A stretch of 64,000 nucleotides of DNA from Halobacteriales archaeon QH_7_66_36. Lineage in GTDB: Archaea > Halobacteriota > Halobacteria > Halobacteriales > Haloarculaceae. This document shows positions 8,425 to 28,928 of the stretch, one piece after another. How positions within the stretch are numbered: position 1 is the first letter of the stretch; every line of letters starts with the position of its first letter. Location of the stretch: NCBI GenBank assembly GCA_003021175.1, contig PXQV01000015.1, positions 1-64,000 on the forward strand, given 5' to 3'. The position numbers and the translations under genes are program-made. Under the pieces are notes generated by a model. The model made no database searches and was not told the origin of the DNA. It worked only from the letters and a program-made list of their open reading frames with translations.

Positions 8425-10293
8425 TTACTCCTGCCGATACCAGCCGGGGAAGTTCCACCCGCTGAAGAAGTTCTCCTCGGGACCGGCGATGTCCGACGAG
8501 TACCCCGGCGTGTCGGTGTCGAGCGCGAGCATGCCCAGCGGCTGTGCCTCCGAAATCTCCACGAAGATCTCGGAGAAGATCGACTGCAGCTCCTCCTCGC
8601 TGGTCGTCTCGTTGGCCTGCTGGAACAGCTCCGGCGCGTTCCACTCCGGCACGTAGCCGTAGGGATTGTAGAACGACTCCTCGACGGTGAAGAAGACGCT
8701 GTTCGTGAGCGGGTTGAGCGGGTAGGTGTTGAGTCCGAGCACCATGCTCATGTCCCATCCGTTCTGACTGGTGACCTCACGCGGTCCCGCGTTGTACGCG
8801 CCGTTGCTCCACTCGTACTCGTCCGGGTTCTCCGGCACCTCCTGCTTCCAGTACGTCTCGGCGAACTCCGAGCCTTGGATGGCGTTGACGTTCACCTCGA
8901 TGCCGGCGTTCGTCGAGAACTCCTGTGCGATGAACTCCGTCGCCTGCTTCTCCGTGTTCTGACCGGCGCTGTGGTAGATCTCGAGCGTGACGCCGTCGCC
9001 GCTCGGATTCACCAGCCGGTCGCCGTCGTAGCTGTAATCGTACTCGCTGGCGTCGATGGCCTCTTTGATCCGGCTCTGGGTCGCCTCCTTTCCGTACAGG
9101 TCGCCGACGCCGAACGTCCGAATCTGGGAGGCGTCGTCCGGATACCACTTCGACCACTCCGGCTGCCACGTGAACTCGGGCGTCGCGAGGCCACGGTAGA
9201 CACCGCGGACGAGTCGCTCCTTGTCGACCGCACACGCGAGGCCCTGCCGGAACGTCCGGCTACGGAACAGGTTGCCCGGGCCGGCGTTCCAGCCGTTGTC
9301 ACGCATGTTGTACGAGTTGACGACGTTGTACGGCTGGGGCTGCTTGTACACCGTGACGTCGTTGAGGTTGTCGAACTCGTCGTACCGGGCCGGCGGGACG
9401 GCTGCCACGTCTGTCTCGCCGGTCTTGAGCTGTGCGAGCCGGGAGGACTGCTCCTGCACGACTTCGGACTCGATGGTCTCGAAGTACGGCGCGTTGCCGA
9501 ACAGCTGCGGCATGTCCTCGGCACCGGAAAGATAGTAGTCGTCGTTCCGGCTGAACACCAGCTTGTTGCCACGCTCCCACGTGTCGAGCGTGTACGCACC
9601 GAGATTTCCGGTGAACTGTAGCTCGTTGAGTTCGGTGTCCTGCCGCAGCCCTTCGGTGTCCTGCTCCTCGACGTACGGCTGCACCAGATCCTTCGGGATC
9701 GCGTACAGCAGCGGGTCGTACGTCTCCGGATAGAACGGATCGGCGCTGGGGAGTTCGATCTGGAACTCCAGTTCGCCGGTCTGCTCGACGTTGACGTCGG
9801 AGCCCCATGAGTCCGTGTTGGCGCTGGCCGCCCAGTCGGACTTGTGAATCTCGTTGATCAGGTAGGTGTAGTCCTCCGCCGTCACCTGTCCGTACGGGTC
9901 GCTGAACTGGAGGTTGTCACGGAGCGAGTACACCCACACCTGCGAATCGTCCGTCGTGAACTCTCCGGCCGTCTGCGGAAGCACTTCCGTTCCGGGTGTG
10001 AACGCGTAGGTGTAGTCCAAGGCGTAGCTGATGAGATCGCCAGCACCATCCTCGGTGTTGTAGATTGGATTCAGCGTCTGGATCGGCGAGGAGACGGTGC
10101 GACTGTACGTCCCACCGACCTCGGGCAGTTCGTCGCGCGGCGTCGAAGAGTCCGTCGACGTCGCGGTTTCGTTTCCGCCACCGGAACACCCCGCGAGGGC
10201 CGCCGCCCCACCGACGCCGAGTGCTTCGAGCCACCGGCGACGGCTAATCCTTCGACTGTTTGCCCCCTCTGAGTGGAATCTACTGCCATCCAT
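8425..10293 (-). CDS. Peptide/nickel-type ABC transporter substrate-binding protein (SBP family 5)
   Basis: Exported binding protein of 622 residues that supplies the permease genes following it. The N-terminus has a Tat motif (SRRISRRRWLEALG) and a lipobox ending in LAGC, so it is a Tat-exported lipoprotein anchored outside the cell. The family-5 order is canonical: N-terminal domain (VGGTYSRTVSSPIQTLNP), the middle lobe with NDDYY, then the FRSRTFRQGLACAVDKERLVRGV segment and a C-terminal domain. The ATG at 10293 is preferred to an upstream TTG. An AT-rich region at 10305-10390 holds its promoter. The transported peptide or other solute cannot be read from sequence. Confidence 0.9.
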   Translation of the reverse strand: MDGSRFHSEGANSRRISRRRWLEALGVGGAAALAGCSGGGNETATSTDSSTPRDELPEVGGTYSRTVSSPIQTLNPIYNTEDGAGDLISYALDYTYAFTPGTEVLPQTAGEFTTDDSQVWVYSLRDNLQFSDPYGQVTAEDYTYLINEIHKSDWAASANTDSWGSDVNVEQTGELEFQIELPSADPFYPETYDPLLYAIPKDLVQPYVEEQDTEGLRQDTELNELQFTGNLGAYTLDTWERGNKLVFSRNDDYYLSGAEDMPQLFGNAPYFETIESEVVQEQSSRLAQLKTGETDVAAVPPARYDEFDNLNDVTVYKQPQPYNVVNSYNMRDNGWNAGPGNLFRSRTFRQGLACAVDKERLVRGVYRGLATPEFTWQPEWSKWYPDDASQIRTFGVGDLYGKEATQSRIKEAIDASEYDYSYDGDRLVNPSGDGVTLEIYHSAGQNTEKQATEFIAQEFSTNAGIEVNVNAIQGSEFAETYWKQEVPENPDEYEWSNGAYNAGPREVTSQNGWDMSMVLGLNTYPLNPLTNSVFFTVEESFYNPYGYVPEWNAPELFQQANETTSEEELQSIFSEIFVEISEAQPLGMLALDTDTPGYSSDIAGPEENFFSGWNFPGWYRQE

Positions 10294-10465
10294 GGGATCT
10301 GTTCGCAAAATATGCGCGTCACGCTAATAATCTGACGATAGATCACAGATTTTTATGTACGCTTATCGGCGGTGTTTATATAGCATTTTTAAATTGTGCC
10401 GGCGGTCCCCCGCGCGAACGGGTAGCTTCGGTCAGTACGTGCTCGGTTCCTCGTCGGGACGCGGA

Positions 10466-21840: not shown

Positions 21841-23631
21841 ATGTCGCGAGACGCGGGCCCGAACGAGAACAGACGACGACTCCTGAAGTCACTCGGCGCG
21901 GCCGGCCTCGTCGGCCTCGCCGGCTGTTCGACGAGCGATTCGACCCCGACAGGGACGGGCGGCGGGGGCGACATCGACGTGACCGAAACCGACGCGTTCA
22001 CGCTCTACGAACGGGGGTTTCAAGAGGCCGGCTTCGAGCCGCCCTTCACCGGGGAGATCATCACGAACGAGACTCCCGAGCGGGTCCAGTGGGCACAGAT
22101 AATCCAAGAGGAGCTCAACAGCACGGAGTACTTCGACCTCGAACTGAGCCAGTTCGAGTGGGGAACCTACGTCGGCCGCATCCTCGGCGAGGAGTCCCAC
22201 ACCGACCCGTCGCTGGTGTGTCTCGGTTGGTCGGCCGGCTTCGACCCGGACGGCTACCTGAACAACCTGTTCACGAGCGACAACTTCACGCCGGCGTGTT
22301 GTAACATCAACCACTACGAGAACAGCACGGTCGACGAGCTGGTGAACGAGGGGCTCACCACGTTCGACATCGACGAGCGCGCCGACATCTACGAGGACGT
22401 TCAGCGAGAGGTCGTCAGCGACTCGCCGATGGCGTTCACCCGGTTCGGCGAGGAGTTCAACGTCTGGCGGAGCGACCGCGTCCACGGCTTCCAGACCTAC
22501 CCGAACAACAGCGTACAGTTCCTCGCGCTGTTCGCCCCGTGGGCGGACGCGTTCACGTGGGTCGGCGACGGCGGCAGCGTCCAGTCGGGCGGGACGCTGA
22601 CCACGTCGCTGTCGGCGGCCCCCTCCAACAGCGACCCGGTCCGGCTCAACGACACCACCTCGTCGATGGTCACCAACCCCATCTACGAGTCGCTGCTCGG
22701 GGTCGACTTCGACGGTGAGCCCCAGCCGGTGCTCGCGGAGTCGGTCGAACAGGTCGACGACACGACGTACAGCGTCACGCTGAGGCAGGGCGTCGAGTTC
22801 CACGCCAGCGACGAGTCAGACTTCGACGGCCGCGAGATGGTCGCCGAGGACGTGCGCTTCTCTATCATGCGGTATCTCAACACGAGCCGCGAGAGCGATG
22901 TCGCCGACTGGCTCGGCGTCGAGGGCGAGGAGGACGACCGAGAGTTCGTCGGCACCGTCGAGGTGCTCGGCGACTACGAGCTGGAGATATCCCTCCCGGA
23001 GCCGTACTCGCCGTTCAGGTTCTCCATCGCCGCCGTGCCGGTCGTGCCACAGGAAGCCGGCTATCCGGAAGCCCACCCGAACAGCGACACCGGCACGCTC
23101 GACCTCTCGGCGGAGCCGATCGGGACCGGTCCGTTCACCTTCGTCGAGGAGCAGCCCGACGAGCTGTGGCGCATCGAGCGCAACGAGAACTACTGGTTCG
23201 AGGGGACCGACGACATCCCCGCCCAGCCGCCGCTCGAACAGGTCGACATGCGCGTCATCACCGAGAGCTCGGTCCAGGAGGGCGCGCTCCAGTCGGGCGA
23301 CATCGACATCGCCACCAGCCCGCCGCCGGGTAGCGTTGCCAACTTCGAGCAGAGCGAGGAGTTCACCGTCGACCGCCGGGTCGCCTCCGGCTTCGACCTG
23401 TTCATCTACCCGAGCCACCCCGAGGCGGATACGCCGTTCCAGAACCGCAAGGTCCGCATCGCGACCAACCGGATGGTAAACCGACCGGGTATCGTCGAGG
23501 CGGTGTACGAGGGCATCGGCCAGCCGGCGTACGCACCCATCTCGCCGCTAGCCGGCGCGTTCACCTCACCGGAGTTTCAGGAGGAGATGGCGACGCGCTA
23601 CTCCCGATACCACAGGGACGCGGACCGGTAG
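21841..23631 (+). CDS. Circularly permuted SBP family 5 substrate-binding lipoprotein
   Basis: 596-residue binding protein that opens the second peptide-type ABC operon. It has a Tat motif (RRRLLKSLG, residues 11-19) and a lipobox Cys at 29. The domain order is unusual. Residues about 51-241 match what is normally the C-terminal part of DppA-like proteins (RVQWAQIIQEELN, FEWGTYV, GWSAGFDPDGYLNNLF, DERADIYEDVQREVV). Only after a short linker (DGGSVQSG, 243-250) comes the usual N-terminal domain (GGTLTTSLSAAPSNSDP), then the middle lobe, and the protein ends with RKVRIATNRMVNRPGIVEAV. The other SBP of this window (8425-10293) has the normal order. Confidence 0.88.
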   Translation: MSRDAGPNENRRRLLKSLGAAGLVGLAGCSTSDSTPTGTGGGGDIDVTETDAFTLYERGFQEAGFEPPFTGEIITNETPERVQWAQIIQEELNSTEYFDLELSQFEWGTYVGRILGEESHTDPSLVCLGWSAGFDPDGYLNNLFTSDNFTPACCNINHYENSTVDELVNEGLTTFDIDERADIYEDVQREVVSDSPMAFTRFGEEFNVWRSDRVHGFQTYPNNSVQFLALFAPWADAFTWVGDGGSVQSGGTLTTSLSAAPSNSDPVRLNDTTSSMVTNPIYESLLGVDFDGEPQPVLAESVEQVDDTTYSVTLRQGVEFHASDESDFDGREMVAEDVRFSIMRYLNTSRESDVADWLGVEGEEDDREFVGTVEVLGDYELEISLPEPYSPFRFSIAAVPVVPQEAGYPEAHPNSDTGTLDLSAEPIGTGPFTFVEEQPDELWRIERNENYWFEGTDDIPAQPPLEQVDMRVITESSVQEGALQSGDIDIATSPPPGSVANFEQSEEFTVDRRVASGFDLFIYPSHPEADTPFQNRKVRIATNRMVNRPGIVEAVYEGIGQPAYAPISPLAGAFTSPEFQEEMATRYSRYHRDADR

Positions 23632-23667: not shown

Positions 23668-24621
23668 ATGTCGCTACGTCAGTACGTGACCAAGCGGCTG
23701 TTGCTCACGGTCCCGATACTGCTGGGAGTAACAGTCATTACGTTCCTGATGACCCACCTCCAGCCCGGCGACCCGGTCGACGTGCTCATCCCCCTCGGTG
23801 CGAACCCGAGCGAGGAGGCCATCAGACAGCTCCGCCGACAGTACCACCTCAACGAGCCGCTGTACGTCCAGTACTTCCTGTGGCTCAAGGACGCGATGGT
23901 GTTCGACTTCGGCGTCTCCATCCAGCGTGACTCGCTCGTCAGCGAGGCGATACTCACGCGGCTGCCGTACACGCTCCTTCTGGGCGTATTCGCGCTGTTC
24001 ATCGCCGTCGCCATCGGGGTCCCCGCGGGTATCATCGCCGCCGTGCGGAAGGGCGACAAGGTCGACGAGGTGAGCCGTATCGCCGCCCTGCTCGGCATCG
24101 CGACGCCGAACTTCTGGCTCGGGCTCATCCTGATATTCATCTTCGGGGTCCAGCTCGGCTGGATATCGACCATCCCGCCGTCCGACGTGAGCGTCCTCGA
24201 CCCGGCGCTGTTGACGTACATGATACTGCCGGCGGTCACGCTCGGGACCGCCTCGTCGGCGCTCCTGATGCGGATCATGCGCTCGTCGATGATAGAGGAA
24301 CTCAACAAGGAGTACGTCCGGATGGCCCGGGCGAAGGGGCTCGCCGCGCGGACCGTCATCGTCAAACACGTGGCACGCAACTCCCTCATCTCGGTCGTCA
24401 CCGTCGCCGCGCTCCAGATCGCGTTCATCGTCGACGGCGCGGTCGTCATCGAACAGGTGTTCTCGATGCGAGGGGTGGGGCGGCTGATACTACAGGCCAT
24501 CCTCCAGCGGGACTTCCCGATCATCCAAGCCGGCGTCCTGATGATCGGCGTCGTTATCGTGTTCGCCAACCTCGCGGCCGACATCATCTACTCGTTCCTC
24601 GACCCACGCATCAGATACTGA
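23668..24621 (+). CDS. Dipeptide/oligopeptide ABC transporter permease (DppB type)
   Basis: 317 residues, six predicted membrane helices. It starts with a Lys/Arg-containing N-terminus and the first helix (LLLTVPILLGVTVITFLM). The conserved loop RQLRRQYHLNEPLYVQYF is near residue 52 and the ATPase-contact EAA-type loop (RAKGLAARTVIVKHVARN) near 220. The ending FLDPRIRY is typical. It follows the binding-protein gene after 36 bases that contain a short CA-dinucleotide run. Confidence 0.93.
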   Translation: MSLRQYVTKRLLLTVPILLGVTVITFLMTHLQPGDPVDVLIPLGANPSEEAIRQLRRQYHLNEPLYVQYFLWLKDAMVFDFGVSIQRDSLVSEAILTRLPYTLLLGVFALFIAVAIGVPAGIIAAVRKGDKVDEVSRIAALLGIATPNFWLGLILIFIFGVQLGWISTIPPSDVSVLDPALLTYMILPAVTLGTASSALLMRIMRSSMIEELNKEYVRMARAKGLAARTVIVKHVARNSLISVVTVAALQIAFIVDGAVVIEQVFSMRGVGRLILQAILQRDFPIIQAGVLMIGVVIVFANLAADIIYSFLDPRIRY

Positions 24622-24622
24622 C

Positions 24623-25678
24623 ATGAGCACGGAAGACACGACATCCGACGGTGCCAGAGCGCGGACGTCGCGGCGCGGCCGGATCCGCGTGACCGGCTTC
24701 GACAGCGCGGCGGTCCGCGACCGGGAGACGTTCTCCGCGGACCGGACCGGCATCAGCGGCGCGGCCGCGAACCGCCGCACGAAGGCGTGGAACCGGTTCA
24801 AGCAGAACCGCTCGGCCATCATCGGGCTGGCCATCCTCGCGTTCATGGTCTTCATCGCGGTGTTCGCGCGACCGATCCAAGTGAGCCTCCTCGGTGAAGG
24901 GTTCGTGATCCAGCCGTTCCAGCTCGCGCCGCACAACACGGACACGAACCTCGTCGCCGGGAACCAGCCGCCGTCGGCGGAACACCCGTTCGGTACCTCC
25001 GACCTCGGCCGCGACATCATGTCGCAGGTGATGGTGGGGGCGCGGTTCAGCCTCGCCATCGGCGTCATCGCGGTCGGGCTCGCGGTCGGCATCGGCGTCC
25101 CGCTCGGCGCGATCGCCGGCTACTACGGCGGCTGGGTCGACGAGGCAGTCATGCGGCTGGTCGATATCCTGTACGCGTTCCCGTTCCTCGTGCTGGCCAT
25201 CGTCATCATCGCCATCCTCGGCCAGGGGTTCTGGAACATGATAGCGGCGCTCGTCATCGTCGGCTGGATCGGCTACGCCCGGCTGATACGCGGCGAAATC
25301 CTCTCCGTGAAGGAAAACGAGTACGTCATGGCAGCGAAGGCGCTCGGCGCGCGCGACCGGTCGATCATCTTCAGACACATCGTGCCGAACGCCATCGCAC
25401 CGGTAATCGTGCAGGCGACGCTGGCCGTCGGGACAATCGTCCTCGCGGCCGCCGCGTTGGGCTTCCTCGGCTTGGGACTCCAGCCCGGAACGCCCGAGTG
25501 GGGGACCATCCTCTCGGAGGGGCGCGAGGCGGTCATCCGCGGCTACTGGTGGGTCACCACGTTCCCCGGGCTCGCTATCGTGGTGTTCGTCCTCGCGGTC
25601 AACCTCGTCGGTGACGGGATCCGTGACGCGCTCGACCCGCAGGACGAGGTCGGCGAACAGGAGGGGGGCTTCCGATGA
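24623..25678 (+). CDS. Dipeptide/oligopeptide ABC transporter permease (DppC type)
   Basis: 351 residues. After a 60-residue hydrophilic, Arg-rich N-terminus comes the first membrane helix (IIGLAILAFMVFIAVFA), an outer loop with the conserved HPFGTSDLGRDIMSQVM (near residue 115) and the transport domain. The EAA loop is KALGARDRSIIFRHIVPN near 236. It starts one base after the dppB stop and its own stop overlaps the next gene by four bases (ATGA). Confidence 0.93.
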   Translation: MSTEDTTSDGARARTSRRGRIRVTGFDSAAVRDRETFSADRTGISGAAANRRTKAWNRFKQNRSAIIGLAILAFMVFIAVFARPIQVSLLGEGFVIQPFQLAPHNTDTNLVAGNQPPSAEHPFGTSDLGRDIMSQVMVGARFSLAIGVIAVGLAVGIGVPLGAIAGYYGGWVDEAVMRLVDILYAFPFLVLAIVIIAILGQGFWNMIAALVIVGWIGYARLIRGEILSVKENEYVMAAKALGARDRSIIFRHIVPNAIAPVIVQATLAVGTIVLAAAALGFLGLGLQPGTPEWGTILSEGREAVIRGYWWVTTFPGLAIVVFVLAVNLVGDGIRDALDPQDEVGEQEGGFR

Positions 25679-27033
25679 GCCTCCTCGAAGTCGACGACCT
25701 CCGCACCCGGTTTTACACCGAGGAAGGCGTCGTCAAGGCGGTCGACGGCCTCTCCTACCGGATCGACGACGGAGAGAAGTTCGGCATCGTCGGCGAGTCC
25801 GGCGCGGGCAAGTCCGTCGCCTCGGCGTCGCTGATGCGGCTCATCGACAGCCCGGGGCGGATCGTCGGCGGGTCGATACGCTTCACGAAGCCGGAGACGG
25901 CCGAGACGTTCGCGTCGGCGTTCCCGGACCACGTCGTCGACGTCGAGGAGCTCCGCGCTGACCACGACCCGGTCGACCTCGTCGACCGGCTCCTCACGTC
26001 GGGACTCTCGCCGGCCGATATCGCTCCCGACGCGGGCCTATCACAGGGGGCGACCGCGTCGAGTATCGTCGCCGAGACGGGACTCACCGTGCGGGACCTC
26101 GTCGACAGCCGCCACGCGGCCGACGTCGGCCTCGTCGACGAGAACGACTTCGTCGTCCGCGACGGCAACGACCGGTACATCGAAGTCACGCGCGCGACGG
26201 ACCAAGCGTTGCGTCGGCTCCGCGGCGGTCACATCTCGATGATATTCCAGGACCCACAGACCGCGCTCAACCCGGTCTACACCGTCGGCGAGCAGATCTC
26301 CGAGGCCATCCGGACGCATCTCGACCTTTCCGAGTCGGCGGTGAAGGAGCGAGCCATCGAGATACTCGGACAGGTCGGCATCCCGGACCCCGCGGAGCGG
26401 TACAGCGACTACCCCCACGAGTTCTCCGGCGGGATGCAACAGCGGGCTGTCATCGCCATCGCGCTATCGTGTGACCCGGACCTCGTCATCGCCGACGAGC
26501 CGACGACGGCGCTCGACGTGACAATCGAAGCACAGATACTCGACCTGCTGGACGATCTGACGACCGGCCGGGAGATGGCAATCCAGCTCATCACCCACGA
26601 TCTGGGCGTCGTCGCCGAGGTCTGTGACCGGGTCGCCGTGATGTACGCCGGGAAGCCGGTCGAGGTCGCGCCGGTCGAGGAGCTCTACTACGACCCGAAA
26701 CACCCGTACACGGTCGGGCTGATGAGCTCGATTCCCCGCATCGGCGACGACCGACCGCGCCTCGATACGATACCGGGGACGATGCCCGACCTCGTCGAGA
26801 CGCCGCCGGGGTGTAGCTTCCACCCGCGGTGTCCCTACGCCGAGGAGGCGTGTACCCGCAAGGAGCCGCCGCTGGTCGATACGGGGACCGGGGAGGCGTA
26901 CGACCCGGACGCGCTCGAGGGCCACACCGCTTCGTGTCTGGCGTACACCGGCGACCTCGCCGGGAGGCTGGGGTTCGACGTACGGGTAACCGAGGAATCC
27001 GACGCCGCCGTCACCGGGGAGGAGAACGAATGA
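25675..27033 (+). CDS. ABC transporter ATP-binding protein (DppD type) with an insertion in the nucleotide-binding domain
   Basis: 452 residues. Walker [10 protein letters not shown] is at 40-48, but the Q-loop FQDP only comes at 191. That is about 145 residues later, against about 50 in the homologue at 5187-6224. The extra block (about residues 72-168) is acidic, predicted mixed helix/strand and matches nothing recognised. The rest is normal: signature FSGGMQQR, Walker B LVIADEP, and a C-terminal Cys segment [17 protein letters not shown]. It ends in an ATGA overlap with the next ATPase gene. Confidence 0.92.
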
Positions 27034-28349
27034 GCTCGGAACCCCCACTCATCCGCGCGGAGGGACTGACGAAACACTACTCGTCGGACGACGGCCTTCT
27101 CGACCGGCTGTTCGGTGACACACAGCTGGTCAAGGCCGTCGACGGGGTCGACCTCGAAATCGAGGACGGCGAGACGCTCGGACTCGTCGGCGAGTCCGGC
27201 TGTGGGAAGTCGTCGCTGGGGCGAACGCTCGTCCAGCTGGAGGAGGCGACCGCGGGGTCAGTGTACTACCACGACAGCGACTCCGGCGAGCGGGTCGACC
27301 TGACGGAGCTGTCGAGCAGCGAGATGCAGGAGTACCGGAAGGAGGTGCAGTTCATCTTCCAGAACCCCGACGCCAGCCTGAACCCCCGACTCACCGTCGA
27401 GGACATCATCGGCGAGGCGTTCGACATCCACGGCATCGAGGAGGGGAACCGGAACGAGCGCGTGCGGGAACTGCTCGAAACCGTCGGTCTCCAGCGGAGT
27501 CACGCCGGCCGCTACCCTCACGAATTCTCCGGCGGGCAGCGCCAGCGCATCGGCATCGCCCGCGCGCTCGCCGTCGACCCGGAGTTCATCGTCTGTGACG
27601 AACCGGTGAGCGCACTCGACGTGAGCGTGCAGGCACAGATACTCAATCTGCTGGAGGAGCTACAGGAGGAGTTCGGTCTCTCGTATCTGTTCATCGCCCA
27701 CGACCTCTCCGTCGTCGAGCACATCTCCGACCGCGTCGCCGTGATGTATCTCGGCAACATCGTCGAGACCGGCGTGCCCGAAGACATCTTCGAGGAGCCA
27801 CACCACCCGTACACGGAGGCGCTCCTGTCGGCGATCCCGGAACCGGACCCGCTCTGGGTCCGCGACCGGGTCCAACTCGAAGGGACAGTCCCCTCGCCCA
27901 TCGACCCGCCCTCCGGCTGTCGATTCCACACCAGATGTCCGCAGATCATCCCGCCCGACGGGATGGACATCGAGCAGGCCGTCTACCGGGACATCGTCGG
28001 TCTCAGACAGCGCATCCGCGAGCGGGAGATAAACGTCGACCGGGTGCGCGAGGAGTTCGCCGAGGGGACATCGACCGACGCGGTCGCCGACGCGCTCGTC
28101 GGCCAGGAGTTCGACCATCCGCCGTCGGGCGTCCACCGCGACCGTGTCGAGGAGGCGCTGTCGCTGGTGGCCGAGAACAACTGGGAACGGGGCCGTGAGC
28201 TGCTCGCCGACCACTACGAGAGCGTCTGCGAGCGACGCGAGCCCGTCCTGCAGGAGGATGCGAACCCGAAGGCGTGTCACCTCTACGAACAGCCGCCGAC
28301 GGAGTCGATGGACACGGGAAGCCGACAGCAGGGCAGCGCGGACGACTGA
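27030..28349 (+). CDS. Dipeptide/oligopeptide ABC transporter ATP-binding protein (DppF type)
   Basis: 439 residues, last gene of the second peptide operon. The start [17 protein letters not shown] at 27030 overlaps the previous stop by four bases; a longer frame upstream is rejected. Motifs: Walker [10 protein letters not shown] (near 55), Q-loop [10 protein letters not shown], signature FSGGQRQR, Walker B FIVCDEP. The C-terminal peptide-transporter region has [13 protein letters not shown] near residue 292 and is followed by a 130-residue acidic extension ending near a Cys-His pair (ACHLYEQPP), like the DppF-type protein at 3839-5194. Confidence 0.93.
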
Positions 28350-28373: not shown

Positions 28374-28381
28374 CTTTTGAT
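28374..28381 (+). promoter_or_regulatory. TATA box before the 28404 gene
   Basis: CTTTTGAT lies about 26 bases before the ATG at 28404 and overlaps a possible upstream TTG start, which is therefore unlikely to be used. Confidence 0.55.
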
Positions 28382-28403
28382 TTCTCGGCGCGTACGACGG
28401 CTG

Positions 28404-28928
28404 ATGCGTCGGCTCTACGAGTCGCGGGCGCTCGAATACGACGACACGGACCCGCACGCCCCCAAGCGGCGGAACGAGGACGACCCAGGGCCGCGGTCGA
28501 TCGACTGGGACGCCGCGAGCCACGCCATCCTCCCACGGCGACTCCGACAGCACGCCATCACGGTCGACGTGGAGACGACCCGCGACCGCTACGCGCGGGA
28601 CGCTCCCGTCGAGTTCCGGGTGACGTTCCGCAATCGGCTCCCGTTCCCGGTCACAGTCCCGACGTCGTCGCCGGTGCCGTGGACGTGGAGCCTCGACGGG
28701 CTCGACGAGGCGAGCCACGTCGCGTCCCACCCCAGCGACGCCGGCCTGTTCGAGTTCGGCCGCGCGGAACGGAAGCGGTTCAGTCGCCGGTGGACACAGC
28801 GGATCCGACAGGACGCTCGGACGTGGACGCCGGCGGAGACCGGCGAGCACACGCTCGGCGTCCGCATCAACACGCCGGAGGGGTGGGACGACGCGCTCGC
28901 CGCCGAGACGACGTTCTACATCGAATGA
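28404..28928 (+). CDS. Haloarchaeal protein of unknown function
   Basis: 174 residues without signal or membrane segment. The N-terminal part is charged; from residue 55 a beta-sandwich-like pattern follows (ITVDVETTRDRY, VEFRVTFRNRLPFPVTVPT) that resembles an immunoglobulin-like accessory fold. It overlaps the cupredoxin-like gene by four bases (ATGA), so the two are translated together. Function unknown. Confidence 0.7.
   Translation: MRRLYESRALEYDDTDPHAPKRRNEDDPGPRSIDWDAASHAILPRRLRQHAITVDVETTRDRYARDAPVEFRVTFRNRLPFPVTVPTSSPVPWTWSLDGLDEASHVASHPSDAGLFEFGRAERKRFSRRWTQRIRQDARTWTPAETGEHTLGVRINTPEGWDDALAAETTFYIE

Follow-up and report, generated by a model that had tools for sequence, protein, structure and literature searches.

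A circularly permuted family-5 solute-binding protein at the head of a haloarchaeal Dpp/Opp-type operon

The open reading frame at 21841-23631 of the window, by which we mean the whole 64,000-nucleotide stretch of DNA analysed here, encodes a 596-residue family-5 solute-binding protein (SBP; PF00496) with a circularly permuted chain. The coordinates of the frame are correct, and profiles, pairwise alignment, operon synteny and structure prediction all support the permutation; the protein is a permuted PF00496 relative, by its descent and its predicted fold. The permutation had been described in the first-pass annotation, and it stands. The protein is no lone case, however: it belongs to one of six permuted groups in the family tree. 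The reading we favour, with a probability of about 0.87, is that of a genuine and conserved cluster C permutant that would keep the usual fold, serve the adjacent importer, be tethered through its C-lobe and have originated by duplication.

The profile match, the predicted two-lobed fold, the export signal and the lipobox are all features of the SBP_bac_5/cluster C proteins (DppA, OppA, AppA, NikA and GbpA), and the operon, which has a pair of permeases and a pair of oligo_HPY ATPases, resembles DppA/OppA-type systems. Unlike those proteins, the window SBP has its C-part before its N-part, and its anchor would enter the C-lobe. Two precedents invite comparison. One is the domain dislocation held to have led from type I to type II periplasmic binding proteins (Fukami-Kobayashi 1999, as cited in PMC9815098 and PMC10601554). 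As described in those citing papers, it too rearranged segments during binding-protein evolution; however, it was an ancient swap of a core element between the lobes and defines fold classes, whereas here the fold is kept, only the termini move and the change recurs within one family. The other comprises engineered permutants, namely ribose-binding protein constructs (PMC9815098) and biosensor designs (PMC6335823). These also have new termini, but they are man-made, unlike the window SBP, which is natural, conserved and tied to its native transporter. Our literature search, which covered open-access full text, found no natural permutant of a family-5 SBP.

Chain order and operon

PF00496 matches the frame with 187.3 bits, against a curated cut-off of 32.4, in a match that is split over two stretches. 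Profile positions 1-258 correspond to residues 293-578, and positions 273-366 correspond to the segment 21988-22587 when that segment is searched alone. The two parts of the profile are swapped in the native chain and become colinear, N to C, only once it is rotated. Pairwise alignment gives the same picture: residues 39-337 of PDB entry 5u4o align with residues 246-575 of the query and residues 354-487 with 60-198, and the family-5 proteins 3m8u and 6ofq show the same swap.

A finer comparison used a profile trained on 21 haloarchaeal SBPs, all of normal order, from which the window protein was left out. It assigns residues 1-44, the signal, to profile positions h1-47, residues 52-233 to h373-548 and residues 244-582 to h59-361. 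With the signal removed, the rotated chain (244-596 followed by 48-243) is recovered as a single domain spanning h62-548 with 411.7 bits, whereas the native order yields two domains of 252.1 and 149.5 bits. Seven control rotations split the chain every time, the best single domain reaching no more than 368 bits. An earlier scan could not separate the orders because the signal had been left in and lay within the rotated chain; its removal cured this.

Along the plus strand, the frame opens with a Tat-type lipoprotein signal at the new N-terminus (RRRLLKSLGAAGLVGLAGC, within residues 1-29; 21841-21927). Signal and lipobox are predicted from sequence and conserved in the 13 orthologues aligned. 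Next comes the displaced C-terminal family-5 segment (residues 52-233; 21994-22539), close to the residues 51-241 in which the C-terminal pattern had first been seen. The junction of the old C-terminus with the old N-terminus (residues 234-249, ..ADAFTWVGDGGSVQSG; 22540-22587), placed by the profile blocks on either side and by junction comparison, includes the Gly/Ser-rich linker that had been noted after residue 241. The canonical N-terminal segment, now last, occupies residues 244-582 (22570-23586) and starts with GGTLTTSL near residue 250, again as annotated, and the protein ends, also as annotated, about 30 residues beyond GQPAY. By junction comparison, the C-terminal tail past the cut (residues 583-596, ..FQEEMATRYSRYHRDADR; 23587-23628) aligns with the start of a helix that is uncut in normal-order relatives (..FNQRMGEEYLGYDTEQA in L119).

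Five genes follow on the same strand: a DppB/OppB-type permease (23668-24621; PF00528 and PF19300), a DppC/OppC-type permease (24623-25678; PF00528 and PF12911), a DppD-type ATPase (25675-27033) and a DppF-type ATPase (27030-28349), both with PF00005 and PF08352, and a sixth gene (28377-28928) conserved by synteny in permuted and normal-order operons. The Dpp/Opp-type make-up is thus complete by Pfam, with the SBP, two BPD_transp_1 permeases and two ABC_tran/oligo_HPY ATPases. The same gene order, SBP and then DppB-, DppC-, DppD- and DppF-type genes, is seen in loci with enough flank, with the sixth gene in most. A search for normal-order orthologues in related haloarchaea found them in this very operon: Halolamina and Haloplanus carry it with all six genes, it occurs in other Haloferacaceae as well, and the SBPs there are of normal order and 41-45% identical to the window SBP. 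The window permease B is 62-63% identical to that of Halolamina (normal) and 76-77% identical to that of Natronomonas (permuted).

The operon had been called peptide-type, a term that suits the transporter subunits by their Pfam matches but not the substrate. Alignment with GbpA (3m8u) puts T75 in the Arg column and sets the Asp of GWSGD opposite a gap in GWSAGFDPD; we provisionally take these columns to be those of DppA R383 and D436. In the window protein, unlike DppA, neither residue appears to be conserved. Since it is with these two residues that E. coli DppA grips both ends of its dipeptide (PMC12136057), peptide specificity should not be assumed, and 'peptide' is here a label for the transporter type only.

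Predicted fold, lipid tether and origin

AlphaFold2 folds the native chain with a pLDDT of 85.6 and a pTM of 0.84 from 32 alignment rows, 18 of which were separate A and B fragments of normal-order relatives; with the 13 permuted sequences only, the pLDDT is 50.6. The best Foldseek matches of the model are all family-5 SBPs, with E values down to 4.5e-20. These alignments take in only about 260-394 columns in sequence, with a TMq of at most 0.42, as expected when a sequential aligner meets a permuted chain. None of the 50 Foldseek matches listed is a solved structure with the permuted order. The permuted SBP is predicted to have the Class II two-lobed fold.

In the alignment with PDB chains, the N-part of the permuted SBP ends near residue 314 of DppA, a position that we take to be inside the C-lobe by the established family-5 domain boundaries. 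The cut would then lie in the C-lobe, from which we infer that the lipid anchor enters through that lobe and not through the N-lobe. Given that both lobes of DppA touch the DppB scoop motif in E. coli DppABCDF (PMC12136057), the changed tether could, by analogy, alter docking.

The simplest path to such a protein would be tandem duplication in frame and subsequent loss of the outer parts, much as the first-pass annotation had proposed. The segment after the C-lobe cut would thereby have moved ahead of the old mature N-terminus of the ancestor, with the export signal and lipobox remaining at the start of the gene. The old N- and C-termini, both in the N-lobe, would now be bridged by the linker. 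The product would fold as the usual two-lobed Venus-flytrap SBP and presumably supply the adjacent DppB/C-D/F-type importer with the bound ligand, so that the physical change would be in the tether. Such a route explains both the signal kept at the start and an almost loss-free rotation, as seen for L188 against L173, where it falls at 403/404 of L173. On these grounds the proposal is plausible; on the other hand, no intermediate in the form of a fused double SBP was seen, and a search for internal DNA repeats in the window SBP gene gave weak, chance-like matches and no strong one. Two adjacent normal-order family-5 SBP genes lie in one operon on a plasmid of Agrobacterium leguminum (L058, 4867-8163), and such a pair would be the starting arrangement for the tandem-duplication route.

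Recurrence and cut sites

Circular permutants that occur in nature tend to be isolated curiosities. Here, when 99 SBPs were brought into a common order and placed in one tree, the permuted ones formed six separate groups: the window clade; L012/L013; L020; L045/L051, whose sisters are L006 (the other SBP of the window, of normal order) and L185; L188/L190, sister to the normal L170/L173; and a large group with alphaproteobacterial members. By parsimony the tree calls for eight changes of order, each of which may be a gain or a loss, and the starred branches alone force six. Of the six groups, five are cut within one stretch of some 36 residues, from about position 354 to about 390 of the profile, which flanks the helix YDxExAxxLLexGF; with cuts placed uniformly, such sharing has a rough p of about 1e-5, for a zone chosen post hoc. 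As judged from these sequences, permutation in salt-loving archaea would have arisen several times independently and mostly at one spot. The normal order of the window's other SBP (8425-10308, minus strand), which had been annotated as such, is borne out by the profile; its permuted sister group consists of L045, from the same genus, and L051.

For the window clade, the data allow one to three origins, because a single origin is not rejected by the AU test on SBP data (p 0.124) but is mildly rejected on permease and ATPase data (p 0.019, for a group named after the tree had been seen). In the permease/ATPase tree, normal-order Haloferacaceae are nested among permuted lineages of this one operon, in agreement with a short spacing of the DppF cysteines common to the permuted L150/L151 and the normal-order Haloferacaceae. 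The inserts of the D-ATPase do not decide the number of origins, those of the window and of Halolamina looking unrelated. Permutation in parallel at one site, a return to the normal order or replacement of the SBP gene might each account for the apparent nesting.

Two further forms of the operon exist. In the third (L036, L037, L132, L152 and L153; family f4, genus g24), the SBP is cut about 15 residues further on; one such SBP, L013, shares 64-65% identity with L137, a relative of normal order, and is nevertheless swapped. In the fourth (L020/L133), the cut lies in a loop of the N-terminal part, at h121/h122. This form comes from one draft genome (G048, 76% complete) and is tentative, because no second case was found among the 392 genomes searched. 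Thus, in one orthologous operon, the same SBP is found with its normal order and with two permuted orders that are well supported, a third being known from that draft genome, and the natural pairs, at 45-65% identity, make the effects of chain order on folding, tethering and docking to an ABC importer testable.

Why the chain was permuted is a separate matter. A selectively neutral account, by which the loop is among the few sites that tolerate new termini and the position of the anchor is irrelevant, bears on the reason for the permutation and not on its existence, and we give it an even chance. It is favoured by the fact that normal and permuted SBPs serve orthologous transporters of the same operon and by the occurrence of permutants in Alphaproteobacteria as well. 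The concentration of cuts in one zone speaks against it, although tolerance could also explain the sharing. A more ambitious proposal is that permutation of the family is recurrent (six or more times, mostly at one C-lobe hot spot), possibly reversible, and adaptive, the lipid tether having moved from the N-lobe to the C-lobe and changed how the SBP is presented to the permease. This we regard as rather unlikely.

By a hand count from Pfam matches, 14 haloarchaeal genomes hold about 76 family-5 SBP genes; 18 of these, about a quarter, are permuted by profile order, and they are spread over 11 of the 14 genomes. The source genome has two permuted SBPs among its six. The second one (L038, 7145-8872 on contig C10) belongs to the large group shared with Alphaproteobacteria. 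In 148 genomes sampled across the phylum, haloarchaea were the only source of strong permuted matches over the full length. Plasmid records gave one-piece matches to a permuted Nitratireductor protein both in haloarchaea (Halalkalicoccus jeotgali B3, Haladaptatus, Halobaculum and others) and in Alphaproteobacteria (Maritalea, Microvirga, Neorhizobium galegae, Roseomonas and Ketogulonicigenium); the Nitratireductor and Maritalea permutants were checked by profile order, the other matches being single colinear alignments. Two candidates were discarded. The Firmicutes/Eremiobacterota proteins L080-L082 looked permuted from joined match ranges but are of normal order by profile, and Agrobacterium H24 was one tblastn piece running across two adjacent normal-order SBP genes. 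Standard domain searches give truncated PF00496 matches for permutants, which are therefore annotated as ordinary SBPs, their permutation unnoticed; those with annotation are named plain ABC transporter substrate-binding protein.

Parentage and conservation

With many SBP paralogues in haloarchaea (six in the source genome) and adjacent SBP genes known elsewhere, as in Agrobacterium, the swapped order might stem from a fusion of pieces of two different paralogues instead of the permutation of one. Against this, both halves have close relatives in the same normal-order orthologue of the same operon: compared pairwise with the normal-order L119, the window SBP is 45% identical over residues 242-590 and 49% over 52-241, with the segments swapped, and the corresponding values for the normal-order L073 are 44% and 47%. 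Since the halves are similarly close to one normal-order orthologue, they come from one parent gene, and we rejected the chimera as highly improbable. In GC3, the two halves are similar to the operon.

A first search of genome contigs with the window protein alone as query gave no match. With a profile of three orthologues, full-length colinear matches in the permuted order were found in 35 of 392 haloarchaeal genomes, of several genera and families and with a near-identical cut; named relatives include Natronomonas (55% identity over the full length), Natrinema, Haloterrigena and Salinadaptatus. The 13 aligned orthologues match end to end and share the cut. The orthologue in Natrinema versiforme (L075/L149) is broken into two ORFs, which might suggest a permuted gene in decay or a remnant without function. 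This is hardly credible, and was rejected, as the ORFs are otherwise intact with signal and lipobox conserved, the permuted SBP still heads an intact operon and its predicted fold is confident. The translation of the N. versiforme locus contains an X (unknown base), suggestive of an assembly gap and not of a true frameshift. An assembly or sequencing rearrangement, conceivable for a source that is one draft genome in 18 contigs, has a negligible chance and is excluded because those 35 independent genomes, named assemblies among them, carry the same order; further permuted SBPs lie in complete plasmid records.

The remaining observations concern the other genes of the operon. Between Walker A and the ABC signature, the DppD-type ATPase is longer by about 96 residues, with a spacing of 210 against 114 in most relatives. 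Inserts of similar size occur in Natronomonas and some others, and that of Halolamina looks unrelated in sequence. The product of the sixth gene, 36-59% identical across permuted and normal-order operons, has no match in Pfam or NCBIfam. The DppF-type ATPase carries an insert of about 97 residues between the second and third Cys of its C-terminal Cys motif, the site of a [4Fe-4S] cluster in E. coli DppF (PMC12136057); in L150/L151 and in the Haloferacaceae relatives, a 7-residue gap takes its place.
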